Below, piece after piece: positions 14,817-18,120 of a DNA stretch of 64,000 bases. This DNA is from Halomarina pelagica (GTDB lineage Archaea; Halobacteriota; Halobacteria; Halobacteriales; Haloarculaceae). Under the pieces are notes generated by a model. That model had not been told where the DNA came from and ran no database searches. It saw only the letters and a list, made by a program, of their open reading frames with translations. How positions within the stretch are numbered: position 1 is the first letter of the stretch; every line of letters begins with the position of its first letter. Made by a program: the position numbers and the translations under genes. The stretch spans positions 2,790,001 to 2,854,000 of the forward strand of contig NZ_CP100454.1 of the NCBI RefSeq assembly GCF_024228315.1. Reading direction: 5' to 3'.

Positions 14817-14913
14817 GCGTCGGCGTTCGTCACGTGGTACCAAAAACCATCGTTCGCGCGTGGCGGACTGTAACTCCGACAAGGCAAAGTACGCGCCCCG
14901 ACGAGTCGTGGAC

Positions 14914-15123
14914 ATGAGCGACAGTCCCAGCGACGCCGGCGACGTCGGCGTGGACACGGAACACGAGCACCACGAGAGCGACACGCCCGAACCGCGCCCC
15001 GACGAGCGCCAGACGGCCCCGCAGGGACCCTACACGACGGGGCAGGTGACGACCGGGTTCGTCGTCGCGCTCGTCGGGATGGCCGTCGTCTTCGGCGTCC
15101 CGATCCTGCTCACGCTGTCCTGA
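14914..15123 (+). CDS. Small single-pass membrane protein (69 aa)
   Basis: The N-terminal 45 residues are acidic and disordered (MSDSPSDAGDVGVDTEHEHH, then Pro-rich), followed by one hydrophobic helix (GFVVALVGMAVVFGVPILLTL) at the C-terminus. Such tail-anchored acidic miniproteins are common in haloarchaea. ATG at 14914 begins where the composition becomes acidic. Function unknown. Confidence 0.65.
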   Translation: MSDSPSDAGDVGVDTEHEHHESDTPEPRPDERQTAPQGPYTTGQVTTGFVVALVGMAVVFGVPILLTLS

Positions 15124-15274: not shown

Positions 15275-17050
15275 ATGGCTCGCGAATCAGCGCGCACACG
15301 AACGACGCGCAGGCGGGTGATCGGCGGAGCGGCGAGCGCCTCGCTCGCCGCCACCGCCGGCTGTCTCGAGGGCGTCTGGAACACCGCGGGGCGGGAGCGG
15401 GCGGAACAGCTCTCGCTTCGCATCAAGACGCTCCCGACCGACGCCGATCCGTACGCCGTTCGCATCGCCCGGGCGCTGGCGGGCGCGCTGGAGGCGGTCG
15501 GCGTCGACACGGAACTGCTGCCGATGGCGGAGGAGGCCCTGCTCCGCGACCTGCTCGTCAACCACGACTTCGACCTCTACGTCGCGCCCCATCCCGGTGG
15601 CCGCGATCCGGACTTCCTGCGTCCGTTCCTGCACTCGCGGTACGCGGGCGAGCGGGGCTGGCAGAACCCGCTCGGCTACACCGACCTGTCGGTGGACGAA
15701 CTGCTCGACGAACAGCGTCGCCGCGAGGGGGCGGCCCGGTCGGCGGCCCTCGCCGACCTGCAGACGGCGATCGCGGAGGCGCAACCGTTCACGGTCGTGG
15801 CGTTTCCGGACGACATCGTCGCGGCGCGGCGGGATCGGTTCACGGGGTGGACGCGGACGCCGCCGACGGGACCGCTCGGGTTCCTCGCGGTCGATCGGGC
15901 CGAAGCCACCCGTCCAACGGTCCTCCGCGCCCTGCTCCGCGACGCGCGCGCCACGAACAACCTCAACCCGCTCGCGGCGGAACACCGCGACCGGGGGACG
16001 GTCCTGGGACTGGTGTACGACTCGCTGGGTCGCCCCTACCGGGGCGAGGTCCGCCCCTGGCTCGCGCGTGAGTGGGAGTGGACCGGGGGCGACGGCGACT
16101 GTCGGGCGAGGGTCACCCTCCGGCGGGCCGACTGGCACGACGGGCGTCCCGTCACCGCCCGCGACGTGGCGTTCACCTACCGGTTCCTCGACGACACCTC
16201 GCTCGGCGAGGCGGAGGCCCCCGTTCCGGCGGGGCGGTTCCGCGGCGAGGGGTCGCTCGTTGCGGACGTGCGCGCGGTCGGCGAGCGGGTCGTCGAGTTC
16301 GACTTCGAGGCGGTCGCGCCGTCGGTCGCGGAGCGGGCGTTCACCGTCCCGGTGCTTCCGCGGCACGTCTGGCGCGAGCGAACGGACCCCGCGACGGTCG
16401 CGGGCGTGTCGGTCGGCGCGCGGACGACGGAGGCGCTCGTCTGGGGGAACTCCCGTCCGATCGGGAGCGGACCGCTCCGGGTGGACGCGGTCGAACCGAA
16501 CGAGCGCCTCGTCCTCTCGCGCGTCGGGGGGCACTTCCTCGAGCGGGTCGACGGCGACCTCGGCGCGGCCGTCGGGGGGCGCCCCGCGTTCGACCGGCTG
16601 GAGCTGTACCCCGTTCCCTCGGACTCCGTGGCGGTCGAACTGCTCGCGGAGGGACGGGCCGACGTGGTCGCCGGCGCGCTCGGCTCGTCGGTCGCACCGG
16701 AAATTGGCCGCGCGCCCGCGCTCTCACTGCTCGCCCGCCGCTCGCCGTCGTTCTACCACGTCGGCTACAACGCGCGTCGCGCGCCCCTGTCGAACGTCCG
16801 GTTCCGACGGGCGGTCGCCCGCCTGCTCGACCGGGCGGCCCTCGTCGAGTCGGTCTTCGACGGCTACGCCGCCCCCGCGGTCAGCCCGCTCGCGGCGACC
16901 GGGAGCGTCGCACCCGAGTTGGCGTGGGACGGCGAGGCCCCGATCCTCCCGTTCGTCGGGGAGGACGGCGACCTCGACGTCGAGCGGGCCAGAGCACAGT
17001 TCGTCGAAGCCGGCTACCGATACCGGGAGGGCCGCCTCCTCCATGGGTGA
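15275..17050 (+). CDS. Family-5 solute-binding lipoprotein with apparently permuted domain order
   Basis: A 591-aa exported protein with Tat-like TRRRVIGGAASASLAATAGC and lipobox Cys30. Residues about 225-591 match the N-terminal portion of SBP_bac_5 (peptide/nickel-binding) proteins: NNLNPLAAE, VLGLVYDSLGRP, WHDGRPVTARDVAFTYRFLD, then FYHVGYNARRAPLSNVRFRR, and they stop at YREGRLLHG, where a normal family member continues into its C-terminal lobe. That missing segment appears instead at residues 45-205 (LSLRIKTLPTDADPYAVRIA, DFDLYVAPHPGGRDPDFLRP). No ABC permease is nearby. The PAP2 gene starts 2 nt downstream, so no lost C-terminus can be hidden there. Ligand unknown. Confidence 0.88.
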   Translation: MARESARTRTTRRRVIGGAASASLAATAGCLEGVWNTAGRERAEQLSLRIKTLPTDADPYAVRIARALAGALEAVGVDTELLPMAEEALLRDLLVNHDFDLYVAPHPGGRDPDFLRPFLHSRYAGERGWQNPLGYTDLSVDELLDEQRRREGAARSAALADLQTAIAEAQPFTVVAFPDDIVAARRDRFTGWTRTPPTGPLGFLAVDRAEATRPTVLRALLRDARATNNLNPLAAEHRDRGTVLGLVYDSLGRPYRGEVRPWLAREWEWTGGDGDCRARVTLRRADWHDGRPVTARDVAFTYRFLDDTSLGEAEAPVPAGRFRGEGSLVADVRAVGERVVEFDFEAVAPSVAERAFTVPVLPRHVWRERTDPATVAGVSVGARTTEALVWGNSRPIGSGPLRVDAVEPNERLVLSRVGGHFLERVDGDLGAAVGGRPAFDRLELYPVPSDSVAVELLAEGRADVVAGALGSSVAPEIGRAPALSLLARRSPSFYHVGYNARRAPLSNVRFRRAVARLLDRAALVESVFDGYAAPAVSPLAATGSVAPELAWDGEAPILPFVGEDGDLDVERARAQFVEAGYRYREGRLLHG

Positions 17051-17052
17051 CG

Positions 17053-18120
17053 ATGGATCTGGGTGAGGTCCTCGCGAGCGTCGTGGTCGTCTCCGGTTCG
17101 ATGCTGGCGGTCGCCGCGCTCCTCCTCGTCGGGCCGGCGCGTCTCGTCGCGACGGCGCGCGACGCCCCCCGTCGCCTGCGCGACGCCGCGCCCGGGCTCG
17201 GTCTGCTGGTCGGGGTCCTCCTCGTGAACAAGGTCGCGCGGGACTACGGCCCCGAGGTGTCCTGGCTCATCGGGTGGAACGTGACGGGGACGATCCTCGA
17301 CGTCGAGGGGGCGTTCGTCGCCGCCGTCCAGTCGGTCGCGACGCCGGCGCTCACCGCGTACTTCTCGTTCGTCTACGTCTACGGCTACGTCTTCCTGCTC
17401 GTCTTCCCGCTCGTCGCGTACGTCGCGCTCGAACGGGTCGAGGCGCTCCAGCGGACGGCGGTCGCCTACAGCCTCAACTACGCCATCGGGCTGATCTGTT
17501 ACACGCTGTTCATCTCCTACGGTCCGCGGAACGTCATGCCCGAACTCGTCGAACCGCTGCTCTACTCGACGTACCCGAGTTCGCAACTGCTCACGAGCGA
17601 GGTGAACACGAACACCAACGTCTTCCCCTCGCTTCACACCTCGCTGTCGGTGACCGTCGCCCTGCTCGCCTGGGAGACGCGCGACCGCTACCCGCGCTGG
17701 GTCCCCGTCGCCGTCGTCCTCGCCGCGAGCGTCGTGGTCTCGACGATGTACCTCGGCATCCACTGGGGGACCGACGTCCTCGCCGGGGTCGTCCTCGCCG
17801 TCGGGAGCGTCCGGCTCTCGGGTCCCGCCGTCGCGTGGCTCCGTCGCCGTCTCGACGCGCGCACCGAGAGGGGACGCGACCGCCGCGGGGGACGCGACGG
17901 ACGGGGCGGAACCGGCGGCCGCCGACCCGACCCCGGGACCGACGAGCGGGCGAGCGAGGGGCGGGGAGCGGTGGCGAGCGCAAGCGGGGAGAGGGAGACG
18001 AGTGAGAACGAGGTGACGAATGAGAACGGGGTGACGAGCGATGACGGGGACGAGGCGACCCGGAGGGGGAAGGCGGAGGAGGGAGCCGATTCCCGCGCCG
18101 GGACGACTCGCTCGCGGTGA
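17053..18120 (+). CDS. PAP2-superfamily membrane phosphatase / phosphotransferase
   Basis: A 355-aa integral membrane protein of the PAP2 superfamily, closest in style to the inositol-phosphorylceramide-synthase/Aur1-like group. Catalytic motifs are FPSLHTSLSV (His195) and GIHWGTDVLAGV (His237, Asp241); the first PAP2 motif (KxxxxxxRP) is not clear. The last 90 residues are charged and low-complexity (Arg/Gly then Glu/Asn/Ser), probably disordered. The start is 2 nt after the solute-binding protein stop, so the two are probably translated from one transcript. Likely acts on lipid phosphates at the membrane's outer face. Confidence 0.85.
   Translation: MDLGEVLASVVVVSGSMLAVAALLLVGPARLVATARDAPRRLRDAAPGLGLLVGVLLVNKVARDYGPEVSWLIGWNVTGTILDVEGAFVAAVQSVATPALTAYFSFVYVYGYVFLLVFPLVAYVALERVEALQRTAVAYSLNYAIGLICYTLFISYGPRNVMPELVEPLLYSTYPSSQLLTSEVNTNTNVFPSLHTSLSVTVALLAWETRDRYPRWVPVAVVLAASVVVSTMYLGIHWGTDVLAGVVLAVGSVRLSGPAVAWLRRRLDARTERGRDRRGGRDGRGGTGGRRPDPGTDERASEGRGAVASASGERETSENEVTNENGVTSDDGDEATRRGKAEEGADSRAGTTRSR

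Follow-up and report, generated by a model that had tools for sequence, protein, structure and literature searches.

A naturally circularly permuted family-5 solute-binding protein of Halomarina pelagica, encoded directly 5' of a conserved PAP2-type gene

P0001, as the protein considered here is designated, is a naturally circularly permuted solute-binding protein (SBP) of family 5, i.e., of cluster C. The order of its segments is read from sequence, with the completion of the fold in three dimensions being predicted. The gene lies within a 64,000-nucleotide stretch of Halomarina pelagica DNA, which is referred to in its entirety as the window. Directly 3' of this gene is a conserved PAP2 gene, and that neighbour is the best clue to what P0001 does. 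Positions of the features discussed, along with the loci of permuted relatives, are collected in Table 1.

Table 1. Features of the P0001 locus, in window coordinates, and loci encoding other permuted SBPs
Feature	Position or loci	Strand	Basis
Family-5 (cluster C) solute-binding lipoprotein (predicted lipidation), circularly permuted, 591 aa, P0001	15275..17050	+	
Tat signal (predicted; R12 R13), followed by a lipobox whose last residue is Cys30	15275..15364	+	Motif-based
Segment B, residues 45-205, homologous to canonical family-5 SBPs over their C-terminal third	15407..15889	+	Pfam, PDB C-termini, HMM order test
Linker, residues 206-213, joining old C-terminus to old N-terminus; lengths vary among homologues	15890..15913	+	Alignment
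Segment A, residues 214-591, homologous to canonical SBPs over their N-terminal and middle parts	15914..17047	+	Pfam 1-283/368, structure alignment
Partner gene, for a PAP2_3 integral membrane protein, phosphatase or phosphotransferase, resembling Aur1 and IPC synthase	17053..18120	+	Pfam PF14378, E 3e-19
Haloarchaeal permuted paralogues	L121-L124, L126, L127, L161, L163, L164, L166, L169-L173 and others		
Alphaproteobacterial permuted SBPs	Nitratireductor L201, Roseomonas L202, Maritalea L203, Ketogulonicigenium L204, Microvirga L207		

Segment order and predicted fold

The term canonical is used here to describe the linear segment order A-B; the order in P0001 is instead B-A. In its natural order the protein matches the Pfam profile SBP_bac_5 (PF00496) with 148 bits, the curated cut-off being 32.4, and that match takes in residues 258-586 and positions 1-283 only of the 368 in the profile. 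Residues 45-210, searched alone, match positions 290-364 (E 4e-4). Rotation of the sequence, as a preliminary description of this DNA had proposed, gives rise to one continuous match in place of two, that is, a single unbroken stretch from position 1 to position 364 of 368, lacking only the last 4 positions of the profile and scoring 161 rather than 148 bits. Solved structures indicate the same arrangement. A profile of the N-terminal segment, as made from 19 homologues, matches within the PDB the C-terminal parts of AppA (1xoc, residues 372-497, E 2e-6) and DppA (358-486), with the main part of P0001 instead matching N-terminal and middle parts of solved family-5 SBPs. Every Pfam and PDB sequence match of P0001, and every top match by structure, is to family 5 / cluster C. 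No permuted SBP was seen among the PDB sequence matches obtained, and one may still exist there.

Segment order was assessed as well with hidden Markov models (HMMs) of segments A and B, built from the P0001 family and then applied to paralogues. With significant E-values, these same models find A-B in canonical SBPs, both from this genome and from others, and B-A in permuted paralogues. After refinement, the paralogue loci consisted of 31 that are B-A, 23 that are A-B, and 1 that is undetermined, with the 23 A-B controls being canonical SBPs of archaea, haloarchaeal and other. As the HMMs pick up both orders, the segment order is not a profile artefact. The preliminary description thus read the protein correctly in placing the start and middle of an SBP_bac_5 domain at residues 225-591, in locating the missing C-terminal segment at residues 45-205, and in viewing the whole as a natural circular permutation; besides the rotated Pfam and PDB searches and the order test with its canonical controls, the last of these claims finds support in same-order homologues and in close pairs of canonical and permuted proteins, as considered below. 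Annotation by profile, by contrast, takes permuted SBPs for truncated ones.

Given the natural P0001 chain, AlphaFold returns a confident model, with a mean pLDDT of 84.1 and a pTM of 0.83, with segment B mostly at a pLDDT of about 90 or above. Under sequential structure alignment (VIA-align), only model residues 209-591 align, doing so with residues 1 to approximately 356 of a canonical SBP (Z of about 22), a limitation which is expected of a rotated chain. The permutation cut site is a loop between helix and strand in the C-terminal half, and the new C-terminus, i.e., the end of segment A, is REGRLLHG. What had been described as circularly permuted lobes is therefore permuted indeed, but not by the swapping of a whole lobe; it is the last third of the chain which has moved to the front. 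P0001 is predicted, from motifs, to be exported by Tat and lipid-anchored, as was claimed previously, with R12, R13, G29 and C30 all invariant in an alignment of 19 homologues.

Taken by itself, one locus could not rule out that this order is an assembly error, a frameshift product or a decaying gene. The probability of that is now negligible. Homologues at E < 1e-40 are present in 34 of 59 related genomes, most of them full-length and in the same order, with a few (as counted from the match table) split into two in-order pieces; same-order homologues are found in 78 named loci. By the HMM order test, moreover, the order is B-A in 121 of 121 PAP2-type SBPs from many haloarchaeal genera, which answers the survey of haloarchaeal homologues that had been proposed. 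These 121 come from the loci of both homologue searches, with tandem copies and duplicate loci counted. The P0001 reading frame is open throughout, the frames of its homologues are uninterrupted, and comparison of the window gene with a 78% identical relative gives a dN of 0.146, a dS of 0.445 and a dN/dS of about 0.33, which is indicative of purifying selection. Error and truncation are excluded, that is, because all 121 homologues share the B-A order. The preliminary description had reached this same conclusion, which stands, but by way of a weak argument, namely that the next gene begins (with its ATG at 17053) 2 nt past the P0001 stop.

Distribution and repeated origin of the permuted form

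Permuted paralogues, at 25-30% identity, occur in many haloarchaea directly 5' of genes for BPD_transp_1 permeases, usually accompanied by ABC ATPases. Permeases and ATPases adjoin, for example, L121-L124 and L127, and permeases are found with L126. In a scan of the phylum, the listed matches from outside the order cover the canonical part only, leaving the impression that permutation is confined to haloarchaea. That impression is ruled out by a tblastn search of plasmids, which finds single-piece B-A matches in Alphaproteobacteria, beside ABC permeases. The canonical order is seen in Cytobacillus (L205) and Cetobacterium (L206), whose plasmid matches are in two pieces.

The alphaproteobacterial operons have features of their own. 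In the Nitratireductor operon, the second permease (L201:7544-9277, + strand) carries an insert of about 290 residues between its first helix and its permease domain, and within that insert are repeated motifs resembling propeller blades. The permuted SBP operons of Roseomonas, Ketogulonicigenium and Microvirga (L202, L204 and L207) adjoin M28-type peptidases, with hydantoinase/oxoprolinase genes present in addition at L204, neighbours which hint at peptide or amide ligands.

Trees were built on rotated sequences. PAP2-type SBPs, including P0001, form one clade (support 100). Among the other permuted proteins are some with close canonical relatives: L192 residues 252-661 match residues 106-508 of canonical L197 with 52% identity (E 4e-146), and its residues 65-246 match L197 residues 514-695 with 44% identity (E 3e-55). 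L127, similarly, matches canonical L224 in two halves, of 45% and 36% identity, in swapped order. The L192 form is established in its genus, since end-to-end matches are given by roughly one in three of 39 genomes of that genus. Break points differ among the three groups, though all fall within about 30 residues. In the main lineage, that of P0001, the break follows a helix and hairpin, with proteins ending EAGYRYREGRLLHG and starting LSLRIKT; in L192 it follows the helix, with the protein ending AEELLEQVAADN and starting near FPLDVQLE; and in L127 it precedes the helix, with the protein ending DEYVRQN (EEYVRQN-like) and starting near AEKLIKAG.

At least three independent permutation events in family-5 SBPs are supported by these sequences, because break points differ and because close canonical relatives exist for both L192 and L127. 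The alternative is that all permuted family-5 SBPs descend from one event, with nested canonical proteins representing reversals or else tree error. Consistent with that, 41 of 43 permuted rows are found on one side of a branch, but the support of that branch is only 76, and both segments of L192 and of L127 have their close relatives among canonical proteins, with cut positions that are not shared across groups. Forcing all permuted proteins into one clade is rejected as well (delta lnL 328, AU p 1e-46; LG+G4, quick tree), and a single origin is accordingly held to be very improbable. For P0001, the probable route to permutation is a tandem duplication from which the outer ends were then lost, feasible in that the two termini of such folds presumably lie near one another. 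Natural circular permutations are seldom caught along with close unpermuted relatives, and here there are several within one family. With canonical and permuted counterparts being 36-52% identical, both the cause and the cost of permutation become directly testable.

The PAP2 partner gene

In 97 of 98 loci, a relative of this PAP2_3 gene adjoins, or is near, the permuted SBP. It runs in the same direction, with the two genes mostly sharing 1 or 4 nt or else spaced by no more than 30 nt (start codons having been chosen by rule). Across 59 genomes, 33 have both SBP and PAP2, 25 have neither, and 1 has the SBP only (Fisher p 9e-16, phylogeny ignored), the latter being an incomplete genome (G048; 76%). 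In two genomes, G055 and G058, both genes are present but not adjacent. The FPSLH motif (residues 191-195), H237 and D241 of the partner are invariant in 22 sequences, corresponding to the catalytic His, His and Asp motifs of PAP2 enzymes. Its predicted structure has a pLDDT of 83.6, and the best Foldseek matches are IPC synthase and Aur1, at a weak E of about 1e-3, followed by PAP2-type PGP phosphatase, PgpB and LpxE, their E-values being weak too.

Variations on this arrangement are seen. At L116 and L118 (genomes G056 and G040), two permuted SBP genes surround one PAP2 gene, i.e., SBP-PAP2-SBP. One PAP2 partner (G034:C1:517238-518026) has a single in-frame TGA inside the match, possibly reflecting decay or a sequencing error. 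Just 5' of the pair, in 26 of 78 loci, is a membrane protein without a Pfam match (e.g., L021:6672-7868, + strand), of which a relative was searched for, but not found, in the window's genome (G000). Upstream of the SBP gene of the window, at 14860-15120 (+), is a small DUF7550 protein that is kept within the genus. Neighbouring HisF, GT2, GMC and ArnT genes are not kept outside the genus, except for two weak GT2 matches.

No permease genes adjoin P0001, as the preliminary description had stated, and the locus lacks the adjacent BPD_transp_1 permeases and ATPases by which a Dpp/Opp ABC importer is recognized. A sensory or scavenging role, which that description had suggested on this ground, may or may not apply; the conserved PAP2 gene directly 3' had been overlooked there. 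Around the named PAP2-type loci, genes for permeases and ATPases are seldom found, with few exceptions. From one perspective P0001 could be an orphan, that is, an ABC SBP serving permeases encoded elsewhere, its PAP2 neighbour being incidental. SBPs which share permeases are known, and permuted paralogues do reside in full Dpp/Opp operons in many haloarchaea, including in the window's own genome (L121, G000:C2). Yet PAP2 persists as the neighbour throughout many genera, the presence and absence of SBP and PAP2 match nearly perfectly, and permeases are seldom near the P0001 clade, all of which makes the orphan possibility unlikely. The best explanation, and one that is probably correct, is instead that P0001 is a permuted SBP whose clade left ABC transport and is now paired, as a two-gene unit, with an Aur1-like membrane enzyme of PAP2 type. 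That this unit is closely coupled follows from the conservation of both neighbourhood and co-occurrence, though gene linkage can also mean co-regulation without physical interaction. So tight a pairing is a pointer to a hitherto undescribed envelope system, common to many haloarchaeal families.

How such a unit might operate can be modeled on OppA-like LpqW, which functions in mycobacterial lipoglycan synthesis. The anchored SBP would capture, at the outer face, a solute or lipid head group, closing upon it, and would then either hand over what it has captured to the outward-facing active site of PAP2 or else regulate PAP2. By analogy this is credible, if with slightly less than even confidence. 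More narrowly, the role could be one of substrate delivery rather than regulation, with the SBP scavenging a phosphorylated solute which PAP2 then dephosphorylates outside of the cell. Sugar phosphates and phosphodiesters are ligands of close structural relatives, AccA among them, the catalytic His and Asp of PAP2 are invariant, and the two genes are closely coupled, but the partner is nearest to lipid phosphotransferases (IPC synthase, Aur1) and not to soluble acid phosphatases, such that delivery alone appears rather unlikely. The broadest picture, in which cluster C SBPs of archaea and bacteria alike have been permuted repeatedly at one hot spot, with one lineage recruited as solute-binding subunit to a lipid-phosphate enzyme of PAP2 type, in a non-ABC surface enzyme system that depends on the SBP and is widespread in Halobacteria, is offered tentatively.

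Comparison with known systems

In the open full-text literature searched, the only natural SBP permutation found is TpMglB-2, and none was found in cluster C. Cluster C permutation, its recurrence, its occurrence in archaea and Alphaproteobacteria, and a PAP2-coupled lineage were likewise not found there. With canonical cluster C SBPs, i.e., AppA, DppA, NikZ and AccA, P0001 is significantly homologous in sequence over both segments and is predicted to share the same fold elements, differing in that its chain is rotated and its clade is without a cognate permease. The PAP2 partner shares with IPC synthase, Aur1 and PgpB the PAP2_3 domain, the fold and the catalytic His-His-Asp, although similarity is weak.

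LpqW is an OppA-like mycobacterial lipoprotein which acts in membrane lipid glycosylation rather than in transport (PMC3229680, PMC12421883). It is a lipoprotein of family-5 fold, as P0001 is predicted to be, and its own function is in membrane lipoglycan synthesis. LpqW (PDB 2grv) is among the matches of the segment B profile, and the likeness in fold is seen in structure alignment too. It differs in having the canonical order and in having as partners mannosyltransferases instead of PAP2; the likeness is treated as one of analogy only.

TpMglB-2 (Tp0684) of Treponema is a natural circular permutation of a cluster B SBP, for which the names 'Cluster Bc' and 'Type Ic' were proposed, and it retains ligand binding despite being permuted (PMC4990184). 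Natural permutation, a lipid anchor (predicted in P0001) and many relatives having the same form are common to both proteins. TpMglB-2, however, has the cluster B (sugar, type I) fold, in it the canonical N-terminus has its counterpart in the permuted C-terminal part, and its ABC operon is kept, whereas P0001 is of cluster C and, having neither the cluster B fold nor homology to MglB, is outside of Cluster Bc. The authors of that work suggest that tethering may have favoured permutation (PMC4990184). Among haloarchaeal SBPs lipoboxes are carried by canonical as well as by permuted forms, and at least 4 of the 5 alphaproteobacterial permuted SBPs have no Cys in the signal region, so that tethering does not by itself account for permutation and is unlikely as its general cause. 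It is these alphaproteobacterial proteins, permuted and without a lipobox, which provide a test of the published tethering idea.
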